A stretch of 64,000 nucleotides of DNA, taken from contig CAKVCL010000020.1 of NCBI GenBank assembly GCA_934725855.1, positions 1-64,000 of the forward strand. Direction: 5' to 3'. This document shows positions 22,437 through 38,356 of the stretch, piece by piece. The translations under genes and the position numbers were made by a program. The stretch's first letter is position 1. Each line of letters opens with the position of its first letter. The notes beneath the pieces were generated by a model that worked only from the letters and a program-made list of their open reading frames with translations, was not told where the DNA came from and did not search any database. This DNA is from an uncultured Cellulosilyticum sp. Its GTDB lineage: Bacteria > Bacillota > Clostridia > Lachnospirales > Cellulosilyticaceae.

Positions 22437-23417
22437 CTAACGTTCTTCTCTAAAATAAGCTAACCCTAAATTTTTAGGCGGTTGATTTTCTACTTTATTT
22501 CTTTTACTTGATAAAACTAATACAATCATCGTTACAAGATAAGGTAGCATTTTGAAAATCTCCTGCATATATCTTTCAAGCCCTGGTATGTACATATATA
22601 AAATATATAATGCCCCAAATCCTAGTGCGCCCCATATGGCTCTCATTGGTTTCCACAAAGCTAAAATAACCAGTGCAATAGAAAGCCAGCCTCTATCCCC
22701 AAATCCATCATTCATCCAAGTTCCACCTAAGTATTCCATTACAAAATGCAACCCACCCATTCCTGCAATGGCTGCCCCTAATATGGTGGCGATATATTTA
22801 TATTTTGAAACAGAAATCCCCGCTGCATCTGCCGTAGCTGGATTTTCACCAACCGCTTTTAAACTCAATCCTTTTCTAGTTTTTTCTAGAAAATAGCTTA
22901 AATAAAGTGCTAGTCCTATCGCTAAGTAAGTTAATATCCCATATGAAAAAAGCACCTCACCAATGATAGGCAGCTTAGAAAGTCCTGGCACACAGGTTCT
23001 ATAAGCTGTAGCCGTTGTCGCAACTGAAATCTGTCCTACACCACCTGCTAGTTTTGAAATAGAACCGCCAAAGAAATTTCCAAATCCAACCCCAAAAGTC
23101 GTTAAAGCCAGACCGACTACATTTTGATTGGCTCTTAATGAAATCGTTAAAAAACTGTAAATCAGTCCACCTAAGGCTGAAGCCATCAGTGCACATAGTA
23201 AGGAAATCAAAAGTCCCACCACACCATTTGGCGCACTGGTACTTCTTTCATAAAAGAAAGCACCCATAAGTCCTGAAATGCCACCCATATACATAATGCC
23301 TGGAATCCCAAGATTTAAGTTGCCTGATTTCTCGGTTACAATCTCACCCGTTGCTCCAAATAAAATAGGAATAGCTTGTCCGATTGCTTTTTGAATAAAA
23401 ATTAAAACCACAGACAC
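22437..23417 (-). CDS. BMP-family ABC transporter permease (NupQ-like), copy 1
   Basis: A 326-residue inner-membrane permease of the BPD_transp_2 family with 8-10 hydrophobic spans and the family motif GEIVTEKSGNLNLGIPGIM near the N-terminus. With the second permease and the double ATPase it imports nucleosides or purines. The GTG at 23417 is chosen because it follows the previous stop as TAA-G-GTG with AAAGGAGGTG upstream, the same layout as in copy 2 (34256). A longer in-frame start would overlap the previous gene. Confidence 0.88.
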   Translation of the reverse strand: MSVVLIFIQKAIGQAIPILFGATGEIVTEKSGNLNLGIPGIMYMGGISGLMGAFFYERSTSAPNGVVGLLISLLCALMASALGGLIYSFLTISLRANQNVVGLALTTFGVGFGNFFGGSISKLAGGVGQISVATTATAYRTCVPGLSKLPIIGEVLFSYGILTYLAIGLALYLSYFLEKTRKGLSLKAVGENPATADAAGISVSKYKYIATILGAAIAGMGGLHFVMEYLGGTWMNDGFGDRGWLSIALVILALWKPMRAIWGALGFGALYILYMYIPGLERYMQEIFKMLPYLVTMIVLVLSSKRNKVENQPPKNLGLAYFREER

Positions 23418-23418
23418 C

Positions 23419-24510
23419 TTAGTGCACCTCCTTTGCTTTTTTACCAAAATCAACCTTGTAATTTGTAAAGAACTCACATCCAATTAAAAAGAATAAAATA
23501 ATCCCTGTAATAATATCTGAAGCATTTTGATTGAGTCCAAACTGACTGGCAATCTGTACTGCCCCTTGTTGCATAAAAGCTAAAAAAGCAGAAACTAAAA
23601 TCATCACAAATGGATTGAACTTTGACATCCAAGCCACAATAATGGCTGTAAACCCTCTTCCACCTGCTGTACTTGTGGAAATCGTATGACTTGAACCCCC
23701 TACAATAAGGGCTCCAGCTAGTCCACATATTGCGCCTGAAAGCATCACCGTTCGGATAATCACTTTATTCACAGAAATCCCTATATATTTAGCAGTGTGT
23801 TCACTTTCCCCTACTACAGAAATTTCATAGCCTTGCTTACTATATTTCATATAAATAAACATGCCTACCGTAATGGCGAGTACAATAAGGACACATAACC
23901 ATTGTGAATTGCCAAAGAGTTCTGGAAACCATCCTTTTTTCGTTTCTCCATTAATGATGCCCACAGAGTTTGAACCTGCTGGATTTTCCCAAAAGATCAC
24001 ACAAAATGTAACCATTTGCATTGCGACATAATTGAGCATTAAAGTAAATAATGTTTCATTGGTATTGTAATGTGCTTTAAAAACACTAGGGATAAATCCC
24101 CAAAGCATACCTGCTAATATACTTGAAAGAATCATAAGTGGAATGAGTACCCCATTAGGCAAAAAATTAGAAAGATAAATCATAACGGCTGCTGATGCAA
24201 GGCCTCCTACTAAAATCTGTCCCTCGGCACCAATATTCCAAAATCGCATTTTAAAAGCAGGCGTTAGCCCGACTGCAATAAGTAGTAAAATAACCGTTTC
24301 TCTTACGGTTACTAAGATTCTTCTCTTAGTCCCAATCGCACCATCTATAATGCCTTCATAAACGTCAATAGGATTTTGTTTGGTAATGGCGACAATCACA
24401 ATCCCACACACAATCAGTGCGAGTATGGCTGCCACAATATGCGTACTGATGGATTTTGTTTTACTAGTCTTATCGTTTTTCGTAATTCTAAAAAAAGGCT
24501 CTTTATTCAT
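23419..24510 (-). CDS. BMP-family ABC transporter permease (NupP-like), copy 1
   Basis: A 363-residue BPD_transp_2 permease with PAFKMRFWNIGAEGQILVGG, a family landmark, and about 9-10 membrane spans. It overlaps the ATPase stop by 8 bp (24503-24510). Same length and long identical stretches as copy 2 at 34258-35349. Confidence 0.88.
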   Translation of the reverse strand: MNKEPFFRITKNDKTSKTKSISTHIVAAILALIVCGIVIVAITKQNPIDVYEGIIDGAIGTKRRILVTVRETVILLLIAVGLTPAFKMRFWNIGAEGQILVGGLASAAVMIYLSNFLPNGVLIPLMILSSILAGMLWGFIPSVFKAHYNTNETLFTLMLNYVAMQMVTFCVIFWENPAGSNSVGIINGETKKGWFPELFGNSQWLCVLIVLAITVGMFIYMKYSKQGYEISVVGESEHTAKYIGISVNKVIIRTVMLSGAICGLAGALIVGGSSHTISTSTAGGRGFTAIIVAWMSKFNPFVMILVSAFLAFMQQGAVQIASQFGLNQNASDIITGIILFFLIGCEFFTNYKVDFGKKAKEVH

Positions 24511-26044
24511 TCACAGCACGCTCCTTATTAGGCTCGGCAGTCATTAACATTCCAATTTCCTCTTTTGTTGTTTTTCTAGCATCTACAATCGCTGCAACAT
24601 GTCCACTATTAAGTACCATAATTCTGTCACATAATTCTAGAAGCACATCTAAATCTTCAATCACACAAATCACTGCTACCCCTTTTTCTTTTTGCTCATT
24701 AAGTAAGTTATAAATCACATAAGAAGAGTTAATATCTAATCCTCTTACGGGATAAGCTACCATTAATAAAGAAGGATTAGATACAATTTCTCTTCCAACG
24801 AGCAATTTTTGAACATTTCCACCTGAAAGTCTGCTAACAGGGGTTTCAACACTAGGTGTCACGACTTCTAATTTTTCAATAATCTTTTTAGCAAGTGCTC
24901 TTGGTGTTTTTCGATCTAAGAAATGTCCCTTTCCCTCGCTATAAGATCTAAGCATCATATTGTCAGTAGCATCCATACTACCAACCAATCCCATTCCAAG
25001 CCTATCTTCTGGTACAAAAGAAAGTCCAATATCTAATTGCTTAATGTGACCTGCATCCATTTTATCTAAGCGGTAAATCGTTCCTTTGCCATCATGATAT
25101 AAAATCTCACCTTCCAAAGTAGGTGTCAGTCCATTAATGGATTCAAGCAGTTCCTTTTGCCCATTTCCTGAAATACCAGCCACGCCTAATATTTCACCGC
25201 TATAAGCTTTAAAAGAAGCATTTTCTAATACACGAATCCCTTCACTATCTAGGCAGGTTACGCCTTTCATTTCTAAACGTAGTTCTCTATTTTTAGGCAG
25301 CGCACGTTTTATATTTAAGCTTACTTTTTCACCCACCATCATCTCCGTTAAGCTTTCAATGGTGGCATGTTTGGTTTCTACTGTTCCTATATATTTTCCT
25401 TTTCTTAAAACAGAAACCCTATCAGATAATTCAAGGACTTCATTTAATTTGTGCGTAATAATAATGATAGATTTACCATTTGCACGCATTTTTCTAAGCA
25501 CATCAAAAAGTTTTTTGGTTTCTTGAGGGGTTAAAACAGCTGTTGGTTCATCTAATATGAGTAAATCAGCGCCTCGATAAAGGACTTTTATAATCTCAAC
25601 GGTTTGCTTTTGTGACACACTCATACTATATATTTTTTGATCCAAATTCAGTTCAAACCCATTATGCGCCATAAGTTCCTCAATCTCTTCTTTAACGCCT
25701 TCCATATTCAAATGTTGTTTGCCTGGAAGTCCTAAAATAATATTTTCTGCTGCCGTTAAGACATCAATCAGTTTAAAATGTTGATGAATCATACCAATTT
25801 TAAGTGCCAAGGAATCTTTAGGGGAACGAATCGTCACAGGTTGGTTCTTGACATAAATCTCACCTGCATCTGGATAATAAATGCCTGCAATCATATTCAT
25901 TAACGTGGTTTTACCACTTCCGTTCTCACCTAAAATGGCAAGAATCTCACCCTTTTTCACATTAAGATTGATGTGGTCATTTGCAATGACTTCTCCAAAG
26001 TGCTTTGAAACTTCTTTTAATTCCAGAACATATTCTGTGCTCAT
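24503..26044 (-). CDS. BMP-family ABC transporter double ATPase (NupO-like), copy 1
   Basis: A 513-residue protein with two ABC domains as in NupO/RbsA. The N-terminal domain is intact (GENGSGKTT, LLILDEPTAVLT). The C-terminal one has the usual degenerate form (GISGNGQKE, SRLSGGNVQK, MVAYPVRGLD instead of a DEP Walker B). It powers purine/nucleoside uptake. The ATG at 26044 is preferred over one 6 bp earlier because of spacing from AAAGGG. Confidence 0.9.
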   Translation of the reverse strand: MSTEYVLELKEVSKHFGEVIANDHINLNVKKGEILAILGENGSGKTTLMNMIAGIYYPDAGEIYVKNQPVTIRSPKDSLALKIGMIHQHFKLIDVLTAAENIILGLPGKQHLNMEGVKEEIEELMAHNGFELNLDQKIYSMSVSQKQTVEIIKVLYRGADLLILDEPTAVLTPQETKKLFDVLRKMRANGKSIIIITHKLNEVLELSDRVSVLRKGKYIGTVETKHATIESLTEMMVGEKVSLNIKRALPKNRELRLEMKGVTCLDSEGIRVLENASFKAYSGEILGVAGISGNGQKELLESINGLTPTLEGEILYHDGKGTIYRLDKMDAGHIKQLDIGLSFVPEDRLGMGLVGSMDATDNMMLRSYSEGKGHFLDRKTPRALAKKIIEKLEVVTPSVETPVSRLSGGNVQKLLVGREIVSNPSLLMVAYPVRGLDINSSYVIYNLLNEQKEKGVAVICVIEDLDVLLELCDRIMVLNSGHVAAIVDARKTTKEEIGMLMTAEPNKERAVNE

Positions 26045-26112
26045 ATTCATTCACCCTTTCATTTCATCCTTTATTTTCCTATCTATTCTTATGTTTATCC
26101 CTACTCTAAAAG

Positions 26113-26152
26113 CATATCGCGTAACATCCTTTTTATTTTGTTACGCGATATG
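26113..26152 (-). repeat. Intercistronic hairpin between the binding-protein and ATPase genes, copy 1
   Basis: A perfect 13-bp inverted repeat, CATATCGCGTAAC with GTTACGCGATATG, around a 14-nt loop. It lies in the 115-bp gap after the BMP lipoprotein gene. The same core (CGCGTAAC/GTTACGCG) occurs at the same place in copy 2. No long T-run follows, so it is likelier a 3'-end stabiliser or partial terminator giving more binding protein than permease (inference). Confidence 0.75.
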
Positions 26153-26158
26153 GGGTAC

Positions 26159-27421
26159 TTATTTAACGGTAATGCCATCAACAATCATACTAAATGCAGG
26201 AGCTGAACCATATTCAGATTCATGAAAATAACCATTACTTACAAATTCTTGACCAGCATCATTTTTAAAGCTTTCTACTGGTTTACCTTCTACTGTAAAT
26301 TTAGACGTATCAAATATATGTAAAGAACCATCCTTAATTGCAGCAATCACTTCATCCACTTTTTCTTGCGTACCAGCTGCACAAGCTTTGCCAAGTGGGG
26401 TAATGGCAACTGAATCCTCAGCATAACCTTGGCACCAGTCTGTTTCAATTGGTTTACCATTTAAGACACAATCTACGGCATATGTATAATAAACGCCCCA
26501 GTCATTTGTAGGAGAAGTTAATGCAACATTTGGTGCAACGGTTGTCATATCCACGTTATAACCAACGATTGGAACCCCTGCTGTTTCACAAACAGATGGT
26601 GCACCTGTTGTATCTGCATGTTGACTAATGAGTTTGCAGCCATCTGCAATGAGTGCGGTTGCGGTCTCCCCTTCAAGAGAAGGATCTGCCCAGCTATTGG
26701 TATAGCTTACTTCCATAGTTGCTTCATCTACTATGCTTTTAGCCCCTAAGTAGAAAGCTGTAAATCCTGAAATAACTTCAGCATATGGATAAGCTCCGAC
26801 ATAACCAAGCTTAGCTTCACCAGCTGTAATCGTTCCATTATCTATCATTTCTTTTAATTTCATACCAGCTACAACCCCTGATACGTAACGTGCTTCATAA
26901 ATGCTGTCAAAGTAATTATGCATATTACTAAGACCACTTGAAGCGGCTTTAAAACCCGTTGCATGACAACACTGAACCTCTGGATATTCCTGTGCCACAC
27001 GCATTAAGTAATCTTCATGTCCAAAGCTCGTCGCAAAAATAATATTACATCCTGAATCTGCAAGGTCTGCGGCGGCATCATAGCAAGACTCATCTTCTGC
27101 AATATTTGTCTTTTCAATCACTTGATCTTCTGAAAGTCCAAAGGCTGCCATCATTTCATCAATACCAGCCATATGAGCGGCTGTATACCCTTCATTTTCA
27201 TCCCCTACATAAATGACACCTACTTTTATTCCTGAAGCATCTACACTTGAACTTTTTTGTGCCGTTTCTGCTGCATTTGTTTCTTCTGTAGCGGCTGGCG
27301 CTTCTTCTGTTTGTGTAGCTTCAGTTGATGTATTCGTTGAAGTGGCACTACCTCCACATCCTGTCAATAATGATAGGGCTACTGTAAAAACCGTCATTAA
27401 ACTGATTATTTTTTTACTCAT
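26159..27421 (-). CDS. BMP-family purine/nucleoside-binding lipoprotein, copy 1
   Basis: A 420-residue substrate-binding lipoprotein with lipobox LLTGC (Cys21), an Ala/Glu/Thr-rich linker to about 65, and a BMP (PnrA/BmpA) domain starting KVGVIYVGDENEGYT. The family binds purine nucleosides or bases outside the cell. It is the first gene of the roughly 25-kb catabolic operon. The ATG at 27421 (MSKKIISL) follows GGGGAGGG; an in-frame extension upstream runs through a terminator hairpin and is not credible. Very similar to the protein at 36969-38234. Confidence 0.92.
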   Translation of the reverse strand: MSKKIISLMTVFTVALSLLTGCGGSATSTNTSTEATQTEEAPAATEETNAAETAQKSSSVDASGIKVGVIYVGDENEGYTAAHMAGIDEMMAAFGLSEDQVIEKTNIAEDESCYDAAADLADSGCNIIFATSFGHEDYLMRVAQEYPEVQCCHATGFKAASSGLSNMHNYFDSIYEARYVSGVVAGMKLKEMIDNGTITAGEAKLGYVGAYPYAEVISGFTAFYLGAKSIVDEATMEVSYTNSWADPSLEGETATALIADGCKLISQHADTTGAPSVCETAGVPIVGYNVDMTTVAPNVALTSPTNDWGVYYTYAVDCVLNGKPIETDWCQGYAEDSVAITPLGKACAAGTQEKVDEVIAAIKDGSLHIFDTSKFTVEGKPVESFKNDAGQEFVSNGYFHESEYGSAPAFSMIVDGITVK

Positions 27422-27447
27422 ATCGTTTCCCTCCCCTAAATTTTTAC

Positions 27448-27490
27448 AAAACAAAAAGGAGCTGCATGTATTTTTCATACATACAACTCC
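27448..27490 (-). terminator. Intrinsic terminator in the 5' leader of BMP operon 1 (putative attenuator)
   Basis: On the - strand, GGAGTTGTATGTAT pairs with ATACATGCAGCTCC (14 pairs, 2 G-U, 5-nt loop; 27458-27490), followed by TTTTTGTTTT. It lies about 24 nt after the predicted transcription start and before the start codon at 27421, so the operon depends on readthrough. The segment ACAAC (27498-27494) just upstream could pair with GTTGT of the 5' arm as a competing fold. Structure is seen; regulation is inferred. Confidence 0.8.
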
Positions 27491-27519
27491 TTTGTTGTCA
27501 GTTATTGATTGATGAACAC

Positions 27520-27548
27520 ATCATAAAAAATAAATCGGAATTTGTCAA
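27520..27548 (-). promoter_or_regulatory. Strong SigA-type promoter of BMP operon 1
   Basis: TTGACA (27548-27543), 17-nt spacer and TATGAT (27525-27520) on the - strand. Predicted start is near 27513. It drives the whole purine operon. The same TTGACAAAT and TATGAT at identical spacing occur before copy 2. Confidence 0.88.
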
Positions 27549-27607: not shown

Positions 27608-27636
27608 TTGACTATTCAAACCAAACAGACTATGAT
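27608..27636 (+). promoter_or_regulatory. Promoter of guaD
   Basis: TTGACT (27608-27613), 17-nt spacer and TATGAT (27631-27636). It is divergent from the BMP operon promoter, with about 60 bp between the two -35 elements. Those 60 bp (27549-27607) are AT-rich, hold an ATTAAT/ATTAA-type near-palindrome, and could be a shared operator. Confidence 0.85.
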
Positions 27637-27649
27637 AAAGATATAGCAA

Positions 27650-27686
27650 AGAGGCTATTGGTTTTTAAACTAATGGTCTCTTTTTT
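27650..27686 (+). terminator. Intrinsic terminator just after the guaD transcription start (putative attenuator)
   Basis: AGAGGCTATTGGTT (27650-27663) pairs with AACTAATGGTCTCT (27668-27681), with several G-U pairs and a 4-nt loop, followed by five to six T. It begins only about 8 nt after the predicted start and some 75 nt before the guaD start codon. It mirrors the leaders of both BMP operons. Alternatively it is a 5' mRNA-stabilising stem. Confidence 0.7.
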
Positions 27687-27755: not shown

Positions 27756-29045
27756 GTGATGCCAAATCATAACACAATATTTATTCTTAAAGGTCATGTT
27801 ATTTATGCGAAGCAAGATCAATCTGTATGCTACTTTGAAAACGCATATGTGGTTTGTAAAGCTAACAAGGTGGAAGGGGTTTATAAAGATTTACCTGAAA
27901 GCTTTCGTGATTATCCTATAATAGATTATAAAGATCAATTAATCATTCCAGGTATGAGTGACCTTCATGTTCATGCCCCTCAATATCCTTTTAGAGGGTT
28001 AGGTATGGATTTAGAGCTTCTTGAATGGCTAAATACCAATACTTTTCCTGAAGAAGCCAAATATCAAAATTTAAGCTATGCTCATGAAGCTTATTCTATC
28101 TTTACAAATGATCTGCTTCACAGTACCACTACAAGAGCTTGCATTTTTGCAACCATTCACCCAGAGGCGACACTTGAGCTGATGCAGCAATTAGAAAATA
28201 GTGGTCTTCATACTTATGTCGGTAAAGTTAACATGGATCGAAACGGCAGTCCTGATTTACAAGAAGCAAGTGCTAGTGCTTCTTATGAAGCTACAAGGAA
28301 TTGGATTATTGAAGCTAATAAACGCTTCGCCCATACCAAACCTATGCTAACGCCTCGATTTATCCCTACCTGTAGTGATGAACTGATGAGAAAACTTAAA
28401 GCCCTTCAAACTGAATTTAGCCTTCCTCTTCAATCCCATTTATCTGAAAATCTTGATGAAATTAATTGGGTTAAAGAGCTTGTTCCAACCTCTAAGTTCT
28501 ATGGGGATGCTTATCACCAATTCGGCTTATTTGGTGGCAGCGTCCCTACCATTATGGCACACTGCATTTACAGTCCACAAGAAGAAATCAAGCTGATGAA
28601 AGAAAACAATGTCTATATCGCTCACTGCCCAGAATCTAACACCAACATCGTGGCTGGTATTGCGCCTATCCGCCAATACTTAGATGAAAACTTACATATC
28701 GGATTAGGTTCTGATGTAGCTGGAGGAACCTGCCTTTCTCTTCTAAAAGCTATGGCAATGGCGATTCAAGTTTCCAAACTCTATTACCGCGTCATTGACC
28801 AGACCAAAAAGCCACTGACTACTGAAGAAGCCTTTTATCTTGCTACACTTGGCGGAGGTTCTTTCTTTGGAAAAGTCGGTTCATTCTTACCTGATTATGC
28901 CTTTGATGCGGTTGTCCTTGATGATTCAGCCCTTAAAACACCTAGAACCCTTTCATTAAAAGAACGTTTAGAAAGAATGATTTATTATCCTGATAAATTG
29001 CAAATAGTTGCTAAATATGTAGACGGTACAGCTTTAAATCTCTAA
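27756..29045 (+). CDS. guaD: Guanine deaminase
   Basis: A 428-429-residue cytosolic zinc amidohydrolase that converts guanine to xanthine, feeding the xanthine dehydrogenases encoded divergently. Motifs: PGMSDLHVHAPQYPFRG (zinc HxH, about 70), LTPRFIPTCSDELM, SHLSEN, IMAHCIY and GSDVAGGT, all characteristic of GuaD. The start is either GTG 27756 or ATG 27759; AAAGGGAG at 27741-27748 fits both. It shares the attenuator-type leader layout of the purine transporter operons, which argues for common regulation. Confidence 0.93.
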   Translation: MMPNHNTIFILKGHVIYAKQDQSVCYFENAYVVCKANKVEGVYKDLPESFRDYPIIDYKDQLIIPGMSDLHVHAPQYPFRGLGMDLELLEWLNTNTFPEEAKYQNLSYAHEAYSIFTNDLLHSTTTRACIFATIHPEATLELMQQLENSGLHTYVGKVNMDRNGSPDLQEASASASYEATRNWIIEANKRFAHTKPMLTPRFIPTCSDELMRKLKALQTEFSLPLQSHLSENLDEINWVKELVPTSKFYGDAYHQFGLFGGSVPTIMAHCIYSPQEEIKLMKENNVYIAHCPESNTNIVAGIAPIRQYLDENLHIGLGSDVAGGTCLSLLKAMAMAIQVSKLYYRVIDQTKKPLTTEEAFYLATLGGGSFFGKVGSFLPDYAFDAVVLDDSALKTPRTLSLKERLERMIYYPDKLQIVAKYVDGTALNL

Positions 29046-32320: not shown

Positions 32321-33154
32321 TTATTTTCTTAATGCTTTCACTGTTTCAATAGGTAGATTAAGTTTTAAAGCGATTGTTTCATCCTCTAAAATCCCAAGTA
32401 ATGCCCTTGCTGCCTGTTCTATTCCTTGTTCTATCCCTTGTTCTATTCCATCACGTTTTGCTTGATTTAACGCACTGATTTTATCTCTTAGTGTTTTAGC
32501 ACGCATCTCATAAATTGAACGTTGCTCTTCATCATTACTCATCTTAATGAGTTCATCTTTTGCTTCTCTAATCTCCTCTAACTTCATCTCTAGGCTTCGC
32601 ACTTCTTGGCTTTCTGGATCTTTTAGAAACTCAGACCATGCCCAAAGCATATCCTTTTCATCTGTTTCTTTTGGAAGTTTAGGAATTTCAATAAAATGTA
32701 CTTCCATTACATCAGTTAATTGCTCATGTGTAGTAAGCTCTTTCATGCGATAAACCGTATGATAATTCTCTGCTTTAAGATATTTAAAATTTAATATATT
32801 AATACAAATTGTTTTTTTAAGATCTGAATAATCATCACCTTCAGAAGGCTGCTCTTCATACATTTTACTCAAATAATATAAGCTTCTTTTAATCATATTA
32901 TATTCATTCTTTAACTGAATCTCTATATTGATAATTTCTTTATTACTAGTAAAGGCTTTAATATCTAATCTTGAATACTTATCTTCAATAAAATGCTTAG
33001 ATATCTCTGTACCTTTTATTTCTACTGAAACAATTGGTTCTTTTGGTTTTAAAATGGCATTCAAAAATGAGATTAATACACGTGGATGTTTCTCAGAACC
33101 AAATATATTTTTAAAAACAAAATCCACTTTAGGGTCTAATAATCCTTTTCCCAT
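32321..33154 (-). CDS. Rpn-family recombination-promoting nuclease (PD-(D/E)XK transposase-like)
   Basis: A 277-residue protein of the Rpn/PDDEXK-transposase family. It opens GLLDPKVDFVFKNIFG, and the nuclease core is Asp64 (SRLDIKAF), Glu78 and Gln80 (NIEIQLK). The family includes E. coli RpnA, a DNase that promotes recombination, and is often annotated as a transposase. The C-terminus has four GIEQ units and a short helical tail (ALKLNLPIETVKALRK) typical of the family. ATG at 33154 follows AGGAGG. It lies between the two transporter copies and is typically a mobile, multi-copy gene. No inverted repeats bound it clearly. Confidence 0.82.
   Translation of the reverse strand: MGKGLLDPKVDFVFKNIFGSEKHPRVLISFLNAILKPKEPIVSVEIKGTEISKHFIEDKYSRLDIKAFTSNKEIINIEIQLKNEYNMIKRSLYYLSKMYEEQPSEGDDYSDLKKTICINILNFKYLKAENYHTVYRMKELTTHEQLTDVMEVHFIEIPKLPKETDEKDMLWAWSEFLKDPESQEVRSLEMKLEEIREAKDELIKMSNDEEQRSIYEMRAKTLRDKISALNQAKRDGIEQGIEQGIEQAARALLGILEDETIALKLNLPIETVKALRK
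32415..32450. repeat. 12-bp tandem repeat inside the Rpn gene
   Basis: Three units of TGTTCTATTCCT (with one- or two-base changes) in tandem, encoding GIEQ repeats on the - strand. Unit length is a multiple of three, so copy-number change would alter length without shifting frame. Confidence 0.85.
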
Positions 33155-33275: not shown

Positions 33276-34256
33276 CTAACGTTCTTCTCTGAAATAAGCA
33301 AGTCCTAAACTCTTAGGCGGTTGATTTTCCATTTTATTTCGCTTACTTGAAATGACTAATACAATCATGGTGACAACATAAGGCAGCATCTTAAAGATTT
33401 CTTGCATATATCTTTCAAGTCCCGGTATGTACATGTATAAGATATATAATGCACCAAAAATTAAGGCCCCCCACATGGCTCTTATAGGTTTCCAAATCGC
33501 CAAAATAACAAGTGCAATAGAAAGCCATCCTTTATCGCCAAAGCCATCATTCACCCAAGTTCCTCCTAGGTATTCCATGACAAAGTGTAATCCTCCAAGA
33601 CCTGCTATGGCAGCACCTAGTATTGTCGCAACATATTTGTATTTAGAAACATTAATGCCTGCTGCATCCGCTGTTGCTGGATTTTCACCTACTGCTCTTA
33701 GACTTAATCCTCTTCTCGTTCTTTCTAAAAAATAGCTTAAATATAAAGCCACAATAATAGCAATATAGGTTAAGCAGCCATAGGAAAAGAAAATCTCTCC
33801 AATCACAGGAATTTTACATAGTCCTGGAATAGGGGCGCGATAAGCTGCCGCTGTAGTGGCTACGGAAATTTGGCCGACTCCTCCTGCCAGTTTTGAAATA
33901 GAGCCTCCAAAGAAATTTCCAAATCCCACACCAAATGTAGTTAAGGCAAGACCTACTACATTCTGATTTGCACGTAATGTAATCGTTAGAAAGCTATAGA
34001 TGGCTCCCCCTATGCTCGCTGCAATAAGGGCACACAACAAAGAAATCAAAAGTCCTATAACCCCATTAGGTGAAGACGTACTTCTTTCATAGAAGAAGGC
34101 ACCCATAAGACCAGATACCCCGCCCATATACATAATACCTGGAATTCCTAAGTTTAAATTTCCTGATCTTTCTGTTATAATTTCACCTGTTGCCCCAAAT
34201 AACATGGGAACGGCTTGCCCAATGGTTTTTTGAATAAAAACTAAAAAAACAGACAT
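33276..34256 (-). CDS. BMP-family ABC transporter permease (NupQ-like), copy 2
   Basis: A 326-residue permease, the same length as copy 1 (22437-23417), with GEIITERSGNLNLGIPGIM and an identical C-terminal GLAYFREER. It starts at ATG 34256, one base after the preceding stop (TAA-G-ATG), with AAAGGAGG upstream. Copy 1 uses GTG at the same place. It is the last gene of the second transporter operon. Confidence 0.88.
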   Translation of the reverse strand: MSVFLVFIQKTIGQAVPMLFGATGEIITERSGNLNLGIPGIMYMGGVSGLMGAFFYERSTSSPNGVIGLLISLLCALIAASIGGAIYSFLTITLRANQNVVGLALTTFGVGFGNFFGGSISKLAGGVGQISVATTAAAYRAPIPGLCKIPVIGEIFFSYGCLTYIAIIVALYLSYFLERTRRGLSLRAVGENPATADAAGINVSKYKYVATILGAAIAGLGGLHFVMEYLGGTWVNDGFGDKGWLSIALVILAIWKPIRAMWGALIFGALYILYMYIPGLERYMQEIFKMLPYVVTMIVLVISSKRNKMENQPPKSLGLAYFREER

Positions 34257-34257
34257 C

Positions 34258-35349
34258 TTATTGGACCTCCTTTGCTTTTTTACCAAAATAAACTTTATAG
34301 TTTGTAAAGAATTCACAGCCAATGAGGAAGAATAAAATAATCCCTGTAATAATATCTGAGGCATTTTGATTCAGTCCAAACTGACTGGCAATCTGAACCG
34401 CCCCTTGTTGCATAAATGCCAAAAAAGCTGAAACTAAAATCATCACAAAAGGATTAAACTTAGACATCCACGCCACAATAATCGCTGTAAATCCCCTGCC
34501 GCCTGCTGTACTTGTAGAGATCGTATGGCTTGAACCGCCTACAATAAGGGCTCCTGCTAGTCCACATAAAGCCCCAGAAATCATAACGGTGCGGATAATG
34601 ACCTTGTTCACATTAAGTCCTATATATTTAGCAGTGTGTTCACTTTCACCCACTACAGAGATTTCATAACCTTGTTTGCTATATTTCATATAAATATACA
34701 TCCCTACTGTAATGGCAAGAACAATGATGATGCACAATGCTTGTGGATTTCCAAATAGTTCTGGAAACCATCCCTTCTTTGTATCCCCATTGATAATCCC
34801 TACAGAGTTTGATCCAGCTGGATTTTCCCAAAAGATGATACAAAACGTTACGCATTGCATCGCCACATAATTGAGCATTAAGGTAAATAATGTTTCATTT
34901 GTATTATAACGTGCTTTAAAGATACTTGGAATCAATCCCCATAACATGCCAGCAAGTATGCTGCTTGCAAGCATTAATAGAATTACCACTGCATTGGGAA
35001 GAAAGCTAGACAAATAAATCATGACTGCTGCCGCAGCAAGTCCCCCTACTAAAACTTGACCTTCAGCCCCGATATTCCAAAATCTCATTTTAAAGGCAGG
35101 CGTTAATCCTACCGCAATTAAAAGTAAAATAATCGTTTCTCTTACCGTTACCAATATTCTTCGTTTTGTCCCTACTGCACCTGAAATAATGCCCTCATAC
35201 ACTTCAATTGGATTTTGTTTGGTAATGGCTACAATGACAATGCCACATACAATTAATGCCAGTAGGGCTGCCACTAAACGAATGAGTACCCCTTTTCTTT
35301 TAGAGGTTGCATCATTTTTTGTGATTCTTATAAATGGTTCTTTATTCAT
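34258..35349 (-). CDS. BMP-family ABC transporter permease (NupP-like), copy 2
   Basis: A 363-residue BPD_transp_2 permease, collinear with copy 1 and with long identical runs such as VVGESEHTAKYIG and SSHTISTSTAGGRGF. The start MNKEPF at 35349 matches copy 1; it overlaps the ATPase stop by 8 bp, as in copy 1. Confidence 0.88.
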   Translation of the reverse strand: MNKEPFIRITKNDATSKRKGVLIRLVAALLALIVCGIVIVAITKQNPIEVYEGIISGAVGTKRRILVTVRETIILLLIAVGLTPAFKMRFWNIGAEGQVLVGGLAAAAVMIYLSSFLPNAVVILLMLASSILAGMLWGLIPSIFKARYNTNETLFTLMLNYVAMQCVTFCIIFWENPAGSNSVGIINGDTKKGWFPELFGNPQALCIIIVLAITVGMYIYMKYSKQGYEISVVGESEHTAKYIGLNVNKVIIRTVMISGALCGLAGALIVGGSSHTISTSTAGGRGFTAIIVAWMSKFNPFVMILVSAFLAFMQQGAVQIASQFGLNQNASDIITGIILFFLIGCEFFTNYKVYFGKKAKEVQ

Positions 35350-36883
35350 TGCTAGCACGCTCCTCTTCTGGTGATGCAGTCATCAACATGCCTATTTCTT
35401 CCTTAGTGGCTTTTCTTGCATCTACAATAGCCGCAACCTTACCACTATTAAGTACCATGATTCGATCACATAGCTCTAAAAGCACATCTAAATCTTCTAT
35501 GACACAAATAACCGCTACACCTTTTTCCTTCTGCTTGTTAAGTAAGTTATAAATCACATATGAAGAGTTAATATCTAATCCTCTTACAGGATACGCTACC
35601 ATTAGTACGGAAGGCTGGGCTGCAATCTCACGACCGACTAGTAACTTTTGAACATTGCCGCCTGAAAGTCTACTAACGGGTGTATCGATTCCAGGTGTGA
35701 CGACCTCTAATTTCTCCACGATTTTCTTTCCTAGTTTCTTAGGTGCTTTTCGATTCACAAAGTAGCCATTGCCTTCGTTATACGACCTAAGCATCATATT
35801 ATCCGTCACATCCATATTCCCTACAAGTCCCATTCCTAGTCGGTCTTCTGGAACAAAAGATAATGTCACCCCTAATTTTTTAATATCCCCCACATTCATT
35901 TCATTAAGCTGATGTGTTTTTGAATCGGGACTATGATAAATAATTTCTCCCTCTGTAATCGGCACAAGCCCTGCTATGGATTCCAGTAATTCTTTTTGCC
36001 CATTTCCTGAAATACCTGCCACCCCCAAGATTTCTCCACTGTAAGCTTCAAAGGTAGCATGTTCTAATACTTTAATCCCTTCCATATCTGTGCAGCTCAC
36101 ATTTTTCATTTCAATACGAAGCTGTGTATCTTTAGGCTCAGCCCTATTAATATTTAAGCTTACTTTTTCTCCTACCATCATCTCAGTTAAGCTTTCAATA
36201 GTCGCGGATTTTGTTTCTACCGTTCCTATGTATTTTCCTTTTCTAAGTACAGATACTCTATCTGATAACTCAAGTACTTCATTTAATTTATGCGTAATGA
36301 TGATAATGGATTTGCCATTTGCTTTCACTTTTCTAAGCACATCAAATAATTTCTTGGTTTCTTGTGGCGTGAGTACAGCTGTAGGTTCATCCAAAATGAG
36401 TAAATCTGCTCCTCTATAAAGGACTTTGATAATCTCCACGGTCTGCTTTTGTGAAACACTCATATTGTATATCTTTTGGTCTAGGTTCAGTTCAAACCCA
36501 TTCTGGTCAATCAATTGTTGAATTTCTTTTTTGACAGCTTCCATATTCAAATGCTGTTTTCCCGGAAGCCCAAGTATGATATTTTCTGCTGCAGTCAGCA
36601 CATCAATCAGCTTAAAATGCTGATGAATCATTCCGATTTTAAGTGCTAGTGAATCTTTAGGGGAGCGAATCGTAACTGGCTTATTTTTGACATAGATTTC
36701 ACCTGCATCTGGATAATAAATGCCTGCAATCATATTCATTAAAGTTGTTTTGCCACTACCATTCTCACCTAAAATAGCAAGTATTTCACCTTTTTTTACA
36801 TTGAGATTAATATGGTCATTTGCAATAACTTCTCCAAAGTGTTTAGACACTTCTTTAAGCTCTAAAGCATATTCTGTACTCAT
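35342..36883 (-). CDS. BMP-family ABC transporter double ATPase (NupO-like), copy 2
   Basis: A 513-residue tandem ABC protein, the same length as copy 1. The N-terminal ATPase is intact (GENGSGKTT, LLILDEPTAVLT) and the C-terminal half is degenerate (GISGNGQKE, MVAYPVRGLD). The half most different from copy 1 is the start of the second domain (about 255-340). ATG 36883 follows AAAGGAAG; a longer in-frame start overlaps the intercistronic hairpin. Confidence 0.9.
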   Translation of the reverse strand: MSTEYALELKEVSKHFGEVIANDHINLNVKKGEILAILGENGSGKTTLMNMIAGIYYPDAGEIYVKNKPVTIRSPKDSLALKIGMIHQHFKLIDVLTAAENIILGLPGKQHLNMEAVKKEIQQLIDQNGFELNLDQKIYNMSVSQKQTVEIIKVLYRGADLLILDEPTAVLTPQETKKLFDVLRKVKANGKSIIIITHKLNEVLELSDRVSVLRKGKYIGTVETKSATIESLTEMMVGEKVSLNINRAEPKDTQLRIEMKNVSCTDMEGIKVLEHATFEAYSGEILGVAGISGNGQKELLESIAGLVPITEGEIIYHSPDSKTHQLNEMNVGDIKKLGVTLSFVPEDRLGMGLVGNMDVTDNMMLRSYNEGNGYFVNRKAPKKLGKKIVEKLEVVTPGIDTPVSRLSGGNVQKLLVGREIAAQPSVLMVAYPVRGLDINSSYVIYNLLNKQKEKGVAVICVIEDLDVLLELCDRIMVLNSGKVAAIVDARKATKEEIGMLMTASPEEERASNE

Positions 36884-36921
36884 CAGGATTCTTCCTTTCA
36901 TTTTTACCTTTAAATAAATAA

Positions 36922-36952
36922 TCGCGTAACGCCTAATCAGGTCGTTACGCGA
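36922..36952 (-). repeat. Intercistronic hairpin between binding-protein and ATPase genes, copy 2
   Basis: TCGCGTAACG (36922-36931) and CGTTACGCGA (36943-36952) form a 10-bp stem; CCT/AGG in the loop can extend it. It keeps the CGCGTAAC core of the copy 1 hairpin although flanks and loop differ, so the stem is selectively maintained or recently duplicated. Confidence 0.75.
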
Positions 36953-36968
36953 CGTTTGCACTCTTATA

Positions 36969-38234
36969 CTATTTTACTGAAATGCCATCAATCATAATAC
37001 TAAATGCAGGAGCTGAACCATATTCAGATTCATGGAAATAACCATCACTTACAAATTCTTGACCTGCATCATTTTGATAGGTTTCTAATGGTTTACCTTC
37101 TACTGTAAACTTAGAGGTATCAAAGATATGTAAAGAACCATCTTTAATTGCTACAATCACTTCATCTACTTTTTCTTGTGTTCCAGCAGCGCAAGCTTTA
37201 CCAAGTGGCGTAATGCCTACAGAATCTTCTGCATAGCCTTGACACCAATCCGTTTCGATTGCTTTACCATTTAATACACAATCTACAGCATGTGTATAAT
37301 AAACGCCCCAGTCATTTGTAGGAGAAGTTAAAGCAACATTTGGTGCAACCGTTGTCATATCTACATTGTAACCAACGATTGGAACGCCTGCTGTTTCACA
37401 AACAGATGGTGCACCTGTTGTATCAGCATGTTGACTAATGAGTTTGCAACCATCTGCAATGAGTGCCGTTGCGGTTTCACCTTCAAGAGATGGATCAGCC
37501 CAGCTATTGGTATAACTTACTTCCATCGTCACATCATTTACAATGCTCTTAGCACCTAAATAGAAAGCTGTGAAGCCTGAAATAACTTCAGCATATGGAT
37601 AAGCTCCTACATAACCAAGCTTAGCTTCTGCTGCTGTAATTGTGCCATTATCAATCATTTCTTGTAATTTCATACCTGCTACTACACCTGATACATAACG
37701 TGCTTCATAAATGTTATCAAAGTAGTTGTGCATATTAGTAAGTCCACTTGAAGCTGCTTTAAATCCTGTCGCATGGCAGAACTGGATATCTGGATATTCA
37801 CCAGCTGCACGAATCATATGATCCTCATGTCCAAAGCTTGTTGCAAAAATAATATTACAGCCTAAATCTGCAAGGTCTGCTGCTGCATCATACGCAGATT
37901 CATCTTCAGCAATATTGGTTTTCTCAATCACTTGATCTTCAGAAAGGCCAAAAGCACTCATCATTTCATCAATACCAGCCATATGTGCTGCTGTATACCC
38001 TTCATTTTCATCCCCTACATAAATAACGCCCACTTTTAAACCTGAAGCATCAACCGTTGCTGCACTCTCTGCTGATTCTTCATTAGCAGCTCCGGTATCA
38101 CTTGCTATTTCTGTGTTTGTATCTTCACTATTTGTAGCTGATGTATTAGTAGAAGTTGCACTACTACCACATCCTGCAAACATTGAAAGTGCTACGGTCA
38201 ATACAGTCAATAAACTTACTATTTTCTTACTCAT
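36969..38234 (-). CDS. BMP-family purine/nucleoside-binding lipoprotein, copy 2
   Basis: A 421-residue lipoprotein with lipobox MFAGC (Cys21), an acidic Ser/Thr/Ala linker that differs most from copy 1, and a BMP domain nearly identical to it (KVGVIYVGDENEGYT, NNWAD-type ligand region, APAFSIMIDGI at the C-terminus). It should bind purines or nucleosides. ATG 38234 follows TTGGAGGAAAAAT. Differences lie mostly in the linker and a few surface positions, so specificity is probably close to copy 1. Confidence 0.92.
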   Translation of the reverse strand: MSKKIVSLLTVLTVALSMFAGCGSSATSTNTSATNSEDTNTEIASDTGAANEESAESAATVDASGLKVGVIYVGDENEGYTAAHMAGIDEMMSAFGLSEDQVIEKTNIAEDESAYDAAADLADLGCNIIFATSFGHEDHMIRAAGEYPDIQFCHATGFKAASSGLTNMHNYFDNIYEARYVSGVVAGMKLQEMIDNGTITAAEAKLGYVGAYPYAEVISGFTAFYLGAKSIVNDVTMEVSYTNSWADPSLEGETATALIADGCKLISQHADTTGAPSVCETAGVPIVGYNVDMTTVAPNVALTSPTNDWGVYYTHAVDCVLNGKAIETDWCQGYAEDSVGITPLGKACAAGTQEKVDEVIVAIKDGSLHIFDTSKFTVEGKPLETYQNDAGQEFVSDGYFHESEYGSAPAFSIMIDGISVK

Positions 38235-38260
38235 ATTTTTCCTCCAACACATTTAATCTA

Positions 38261-38299
38261 AACAAAAAGGAACTGTATGTTTTCACTTCATACAACTCC
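38261..38299 (-). terminator. Intrinsic terminator in the 5' leader of BMP operon 2 (putative attenuator)
   Basis: GGAGTTGTATG pairs with CATACAGTTCC (11 pairs, 9-nt loop; 38269-38299), followed by TTTTTGTT on the - strand. It starts about 22 nt after the predicted transcript start. The 5' arm AGGAGTTGTATG and an upstream CTGAC at the same distance are shared with operon 1, while the loop and 3' arm have changed in a way that keeps pairing. Confidence 0.78.
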
Positions 38300-38327
38300 T
38301 ATATCGTCAGATATAATTATCAAAATT

Positions 38328-38356
38328 ATCATAAGAAAATACATCTGATTTGTCAA
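38328..38356 (-). promoter_or_regulatory. Strong SigA-type promoter of BMP operon 2
   Basis: TTGACA (38356-38351), 17-nt spacer and TATGAT (38333-38328) on the - strand, matching operon 1 in both boxes and spacing. Confidence 0.88.

Follow-up and report, generated by a model that had tools for sequence, protein, structure and literature searches.

How is a purine degradation operon read when an intrinsic terminator stands between its promoter and its first gene? This question is raised by a locus in the 64-kb stretch of DNA analysed here (64,000 nucleotides, referred to as the window). The first gene of the operon, on the minus strand at 26159..27421, encodes a BMP-family (PnrA-like) nucleoside-binding lipoprotein (Pfam PF02608, 2.3e-29). 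The genes down to about 1.9 kb are co-oriented with it and are predicted to form one operon, which includes xanthine-dehydrogenase, SsnA, YgeY, diaminopropionate ammonia-lyase and hydantoinase-like families. A guanine deaminase-like amidohydrolase is encoded divergently at 27756..29045 (+), with a TIGR02967 match (1.2e-103, 347.2 bits) under the curated cut-off of 375.4. BMP/ABC nucleoside-type transporter operons were found twice, at 22437-27421 (-) and 33276-38252 (-), and both carry the hexaloop layout described below. The paralogous BMP-family lipoprotein lies at 36969..38234 (-), its start at 38234 being set by comparison with the first copy, and the two copies share 84% DNA identity over the first gene and the leader. 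A PD-(D/E)XK family transposase is located between the two transporter operons (32321-33154, -).

The leader of the purine operon (leader A) was read and folded. The earlier note on this DNA had described a near-perfect promoter, a terminator hairpin about 24 nt after the start and a competing ACAAC/GTTGT pairing, and all three were borne out. The promoter, TTGACA-N17-TATGAT at 27520..27548 (-), agrees with the consensus at 11 of 12 positions and was the sole 11/12 match among the promoter matches listed for 24-34 kb. The terminator hairpin (27455..27493, -) has 17 pairs including wobbles and is followed by TTGTTTTGT, a U-rich tract at 27446..27454 (-); with the RNA assumed to start 7 nt past the -10 box, at about 27513, some 20 nt are transcribed ahead of this hairpin. 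The competing pairing closes a 6-nt loop in the 5 bp hairpin ACAAC-AAAGGA-GTTGT (27483..27498, -), in which 27498-27494 pair with 27487-27483 and the loop carries A1 and G4. The entire hexaloop and the 3' arm of this putative antiterminator are contained in the terminator hairpin. Because the antiterminator uses the 5' part of the terminator, the two computed folds are mutually exclusive; the minimum free energy structure of leader A (-28.1 kcal/mol) was the terminator form. These results support the view that the layout makes the operon depend on antitermination and that the leader is too short for a classical riboswitch. In addition, AAAGGAG inside terminator A precedes an in-frame ATG at 27478 (-), which would lengthen the BMP lipoprotein by 19 residues and is probably not the true start.

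Two more leaders of this kind were present in the window. Promoter D, ahead of the divergent guanine deaminase gene, reads TTGACT-N17-TATGAT (27608..27636, +; 10/12) and is followed by the 5 bp putative antiterminator hairpin ATAGC-AAAGAG-GCTAT (27643..27658, +) and by a terminator hairpin (27648..27683, +), then TTTCTATCTT. Promoter B, of the paralogous BMP/ABC operon, reads TTGACA-N17-TATGAT (38328..38356, -; 11/12). Its putative antiterminator, ACGAT-ATAGGA-GTTGT (38292..38307, -), has three Watson-Crick and two G-U pairs, and its terminator hairpin (38268..38300, -; fold -11.2), which is 11-12 bp by reading and absent from the automatic terminator list, precedes TTTTGTTT; leader B as a whole covers 38356-38260. 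Leaders A and B are paralogous and D is not; all three hexaloops have R1 and G4 (A AAAGGA, B ATAGGA, D AAAGAG). When both strands of the window were scanned for a promoter, an R..G.. hexaloop hairpin and a terminator, A, B and D were the only matches, in a scan that demanded R1 and G4 after the loops had been spotted by eye. Ten shuffles of the window gave 0, 0, 0, 0, 1, 0, 0, 3, 2 and 0 matches, one shuffle thus equalling the three. In the region, promoter-like matches alone were near shuffle level (33 versus a mean of 37.2), as were terminator-like matches alone (8 versus a mean of 5.1, sd 2.4); the combined layout was rarer in shuffles than either.

We consider it likely that the leader is controlled by nitrogen-responsive ANTAR antitermination of a form lacking the upstream hexaloop hairpin P1, and not by purine sensing. 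The loop shape, A1 and G4, the overlap with the terminator and the co-occurrence of glnA-linked ANTAR genes point to ANTAR antitermination; a protein antiterminator had been one option in the earlier note and is supported. By default, the nascent RNA would form the terminator a few dozen nucleotides past the start and transcription would stop. When nitrogen is short, an ANTAR antiterminator would bind the 6-nt loop of the 5' hairpin ACAAC-AAAGGA-GTTGT, which forms first. This hairpin would use the 5' half of the terminator, and holding it would block termination and allow the operon to be read. Judging by relatives, the regulator would be a single ANTAR protein with a pseudo-receiver, whose gene in most cases directly follows that of glutamine synthetase. 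Unlike the described ANTAR leaders, the switch would have a single hexaloop and no P1, at or near the transcript start. Purines are rich in nitrogen, so a purine operon is plausible in a nitrogen regulon, to which purine and urate catabolism would belong.

Related genomes were scanned for the layout. A first pattern, a promoter plus CRAAGRNG within 30 nt, matched 174/200 genomes of one family, Shine-Dalgarno decoys included; CAAAGGAG matches followed by ATG were set aside as such decoys. A second, stricter pattern, TTGACA-N16-18-TATNNT-N3-30-CRAAGRYG, gave 341 matches in 392 genomes of the order (taken as Lachnospirales), where its reversed control gave 57. With its spacing of 3-30 nt, the pattern is silent on how often dual leaders occur in Clostridia. 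It also prescribes A1 and G4, and the conservation of these bases in the scan is therefore not independent. In many matches the promoter is followed by a hexaloop hairpin right where the transcript begins and by a terminator that overlaps it; several such leaders precede glutamine synthetase. A non-random set of 120 sites was read (60 loci from the two pattern scans and 60 hand-picked among the matches listed), and a terminator follows at 63 of them. In the 56 best sites, picked with at least three pairs, AAAGGC was the commonest loop (39/56). In a class-wide sample, taken as Clostridia, 122/291 genomes had a match, and overlap with the terminator was seen in 14/14 cases among 32 sites read. 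Divergent pairs on opposite strands, about 65-121 bp apart like A and D, were also among the matches listed (G279:C76:36554-36774, G258:C29:15779-15998, G289:C4:689672-689839, G324:C37:96570-96733 and G377:C90:10768-10938); the pairs in G289 and G377 are about 7 kb from an ANTAR gene. Recurrent matches at L201, L206, L209, L255 and L256 begin with a GACGAAGACG-like sequence, followed at some distance by CAGAGAG, and have no hairpin; they resemble the start of a T-box leader and presumably are scan decoys.

The co-occurrence of the pattern with ANTAR genes was computed in the order sample, where 287/392 genomes have an ANTAR gene. The pattern matched in 190/287 genomes with an ANTAR gene versus 35/105 without (Fisher p 9.5e-9, on raw matches including decoys and with kinship ignored), and the reversed control matched in 16 of the 105 genomes without a detected ANTAR gene. 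Among classified sites, 2/42 with the hairpin and 7/48 without it were in genomes lacking ANTAR. A glutamine-synthetase motif was present within 1.5 kb upstream of the ANTAR gene at 30/34 loci, and glutamine synthetase was directly upstream in 13/14 cases in a first reading. No ANTAR gene was found in the 64-kb window with a profile of 34 ANTAR proteins against 440 frames of at least 40 codons, which would place the regulator gene outside the window.

The relatives mostly have one ANTAR protein per genome, mostly with a pseudo-receiver. The phospho-acceptor Asp54, a feature of the EutV-type phosphorylated receiver, was kept in 3/33 aligned proteins and was otherwise G, N, S, A, T or R, indicating that most relatives' ANTAR proteins are pseudo-receivers and not of the EutV type. 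Of the residues by which EutV contacts RNA, Tyr164 is replaced by His in 31/34 Lachnospiraceae ANTAR proteins and Arg168 by Gln or Glu in 33/34, Arg175/177 are mostly lost, and Met172 is kept in 34/34; the RNA contacts must therefore differ in detail. Solved structures matching the ANTAR proteins were 6wsh/6ww6 (EutV), 1s8n and 4akk, the last two presumably Rv1626 and NasR. AmiR is a known pseudo-receiver ANTAR protein (PMC3369936, consulted in part), and NasT is set free from its partner by nitrate (PMC3795266, in part). As a guess, the ANTAR sensor here may be of the partner type, perhaps glutamine synthetase. We lean slightly towards a family that spans the class Clostridia, with ANTAR control lacking P1, in which one hexaloop at the 5' end suffices, the pseudo-receiver is linked to glnA, the sensor may be glutamine synthetase, and urate and purine degradation in the gut is included.

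A real hexaloop antiterminator might instead be bound by another protein, such as CsrA or an undescribed RNA-binding protein, which we regard as unlikely. A CsrA site is AGGA or ANGGA in a hairpin loop, and AGGA is present in the loops of A and B. One related locus (L029) has two TwoAYGGAY RNAs, a family that together with the AGGA loops we take to point to CsrA, and the poorly kept EutV contact residues would also suit another protein. But such a site is present neither in D nor in the commonest loop, both of which lack GGA, and the genes that co-occur with the element are ANTAR genes, mostly behind glnA.

The genes behind 56 leaders were named, ten by Pfam and the other 46 by reading of the N-terminus. 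Pfam identified SAICAR synthetase, glutamine synthetases III and I, ammonium transporter, circularly permuted ATP-grasp, three glutamine amidotransferase domains, Glu/Leu/Phe/Val dehydrogenase and PII behind the ten. By N-terminus reading, the 56 leaders precede 24 glutamine synthetases, 13 ammonium transporters, 7 amidotransferase types, 2 SAICAR synthetases, 2 ATP-grasp proteins, 1 PII, 1 glutamate dehydrogenase, 1 transporter binding protein (no NCBIfam match) and 1 aminotransferase-like protein; behind 4/56 (L130, L142, L211, L229) there was no clear gene or an unrelated one. The family of hexaloop leaders is mainly a nitrogen regulon, and some genes behind the motif are not nitrogen genes. 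Among 12 upstream regions of glnA-ANTAR loci, a single hexaloop was read in 5 (L147, L148, L151, L153, L156) and none in L149, L150 and L152; L154/L155 have a different hairpin, and at L157/L158 the ORF picked was not glnA. Because the same hairpin precedes general nitrogen genes in many genomes, nitrogen status would be the likely signal, and the suggestion in the earlier note that the leader senses purines or nucleotides found no support. Nothing spoke for its start-site or slippage option either, the conserved part of the sites being the hexaloop hairpin.

A protein-free attenuator, by which the leader would directly sense a purine, a nucleotide or the choice of start site, is accordingly very unlikely. 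It would suit an operon that degrades purines and a leader at the 5' end, where start-site effects act, but the element is shared with ammonium, glutamine and glutamate genes, and its conserved region is one short hairpin, which to our knowledge is too small for any described purine riboswitch. At gathering score, Rfam matched no riboswitch or leader family anywhere in the window (permissive settings gave sub-threshold noise only) and nothing at the hexaloop sites of 20 related loci. Away from the hexaloop, these loci had one T-box and two TwoAYGGAY matches, the latter (RF01731) on opposite strands near gltB at L029 11911-12432.

Pairing in the hexaloop stem was compared with controls. At least 4 bp close the loop at 52 of the 63 sites with a terminator, where re-pairing of the arms among sites gave 15.1 expected (maximum 30 in 2000); the same closure around loops of 4, 5, 7 and 8 nt was seen 2, 0, 0 and 0 times. 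At the 57 sites without a terminator, it was seen in 5 (control 2.7). The earlier note had proposed a search for covariation in related genomes, and the stem covaries strongly: the score over the 56 best sites, whose pairs are unselected only beyond the third, was 0.703 versus 0.291 shuffled and 0.06-0.23 slid. At 52/53 sites with a U-run hairpin and a stem of at least 4 bp, the terminator stem engages at least 60% of the loop and 3' arm, a count that took in 119 sites, one being too short.

A covariance model was also trained on the 56 leaders of other genomes, with no window sequence included. In the 64-kb window, it ranked A first (17.9 bits, E 0.023) and D second (15.3 bits, E 0.12), the third match scoring 11.3 bits; leader B was not found. 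The model recovered 4/5 by-eye glnA leaders (L147, L148, L151, L153) and 3/9 by-eye BMP leaders (L006, L053, L112), the latter indicating that it is insensitive to BMP-type leaders.

Strong 5' hairpins can stabilise an mRNA, and terminator-like matches alone are near background, but a hairpin that merely acts as a 5' stabiliser or a constitutive partial terminator, with the upstream pairing arisen by chance, is highly improbable in view of the stem covariation, the near-exclusive 6-nt loop across genomes and the terminator overlap. Translation-level control, with AAAGGAG in stem A as the Shine-Dalgarno sequence of the ATG at 27478 hidden by the terminator fold, is scarcely credible: the ORF list starts the first gene in frame at 27478, but a start with GGGGAGGG is present at 27421, the paralogue ORF begins inside or near the normal gene start, D has no such start and all three hairpins end in U-rich tracts.

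Leaders of BMP relatives, taken from genome collections, were read with the motif in mind. Hexaloop hairpins were read in L006 (ACGAC-GAAGGG-GTTGT), L047 (AAC-AAAGGG-GTT), L053 (AAC-GAAGGC-GTT), L055 (CATGC-AAAGAG-GCATG), L107 (TGC-AAAGAG-GCG), L108 (TGC-AAGGAG-GCA) and L112 (GTGAC-AAAGGA-GTTAC). Those in L060 and L110 are weaker, and in most other BMP leaders no such hairpin was seen; in L055 and L112 the hairpin is more than 40 nt from the promoter. By the automatic criterion, 12/79 BMP loci have the leader (20 shuffles 0-4, mean 0.65), the scan covering 79 of 82 loci with L049 (which repeats L006) and L038 and L052 (truncated sequences) left out. Matches at L007, L013, L015, L020, L113 and L114 are probably accidental, and some by-eye members were missed. 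With 12/79 matches, several of them doubtful, the leader is patchy among BMP relatives.

Lacrimispora-type BMP leaders (L001, L002, L003, L005, L008, L010, L041) combine a terminator with a TGAC-AATTGC-GTCA hairpin, and were rejected as family members since the loop has no G4; together with the atypical glnA leaders L154/L155, they possibly represent a diverged recognition code. An ANTAR gene is present in genomes with a BMP leader (G001, G032, G033, G044, G171, G241, G524, G526, G552). ANTAR presence was uninformative as a test of leader presence, the gene being near-universal there (46/54 genomes).

If nitrogen-responsive ANTAR antitermination is correct, gut Lachnospirales would have a common nitrogen regulon, and anaerobic urate and purine degradation, which is of interest for gout, would be switched by nitrogen supply and not by purines alone.

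The window leaders were compared with known systems. In BglG/LicT control, as proposed here, a protein holds an RNA hairpin that overlaps a terminator. The BglG/LicT target, which we take to be the subject of PMC3369936 (in part), is a stem with two asymmetric internal loops and not a plain hexaloop hairpin. The reductive uric acid degradation clusters (SsnA, HyuA, YgeY, YgeX, XdhD) resemble the window operon in their gene families; in the part of PMC12507026 consulted, a Crp site in E. coli is the one native control to be named, and no RNA switch is mentioned.

Published ANTAR targets have two hexaloops with A1 and G4, the second of which, P2, overlaps the terminator (PMC3369931, in part). 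The dual-hexaloop leaders (eutP/EutV, nasF/NasR, amiE/AmiR) share with the window leaders a short stem, a 6-nt loop with A (or G) at position 1 and G at position 4, a C-G closing pair (in A and D) and a 3' part common with the intrinsic terminator. Of the features given in the consulted parts of PMC3369931 and PMC8164766, the hexanucleotide loop with A1/G4 and the overlap of P2 with the terminator were found in the window leaders, whereas two tandem stem-loops with a linker were not, and the leaders are therefore not filed in the dual-hexaloop family. They have one hexaloop without P1 or linker, at or a few nucleotides past the predicted start (about 14 nt from the assumed start in A, 13 in B and -1 in D). 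None of the three window leaders has a P1 (R..G.. hexaloop hairpin) within 45 nt upstream of P2, and P1-like hairpins in the 56 other leaders were at chance (8/56 versus a shuffled mean of 7.8). In these leaders, the assumed start is at most 12 nt from P2 in 55/56 and precedes the first paired base by a median of 2 nt (range -2 to 13, n=56).

In E. faecalis eutP, P1 is required in vivo (PMC3369931 and PMC8934654, both in part), and eut P1-P2 linkers are 5-12 nt long (PMC3369931, in part). The consulted part of PMC8934654, a structural study of 2022, reports that EutV binds one hexaloop at a time and redefines the minimal motif as a single hexaloop. It expects single sites where the time limit set by the transcribing polymerase is absent, describes an extra single hexaloop in EutX RNA and mycobacterial stem-loops that are not all dual-motif, and leaves the role of single-hexaloop sites open. 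The class described here sits directly on the nascent leader. One thought is that a hairpin at the extreme 5' end may need no recruitment hairpin, since nothing upstream would compete. A natural and widespread class with a single hexaloop at the promoter makes the question of one versus two hexaloops directly testable. A gltB leader at L029 7118-7250, and at the same place in L032, has two hexaloop hairpins about 36 nt apart (upstream hexaloops GTTCC-GAAGAT-GGAAC or GTTCC-AAAGAT-GGAAC; terminator loop AAAGGC), a distance longer than the eut linkers of 5-12 nt.

For NitR-type control, PMC4676874 (in part) mentions the nitR antiterminator of C. acetobutylicum and an ANTAR gene in the ammonia-assimilation cluster of C. 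thermocellum, and the relatives' ANTAR gene here is likewise mostly behind glnA. The part consulted gives no leader structure; the present analysis defines the RNA element and follows it into purine catabolism. A 2012 commentary had already noted that ANTAR leaders occur close to ammonium and to glutamine-synthetase genes (PMC3369936, in part). No description of a single-hexaloop terminator leader was found in the literature by titles and abstract openings, subscription papers being mostly outside this scope. While ANTAR antitermination itself is known, we regard the single-hexaloop, promoter-proximal leader of putative ANTAR type as a novel form.
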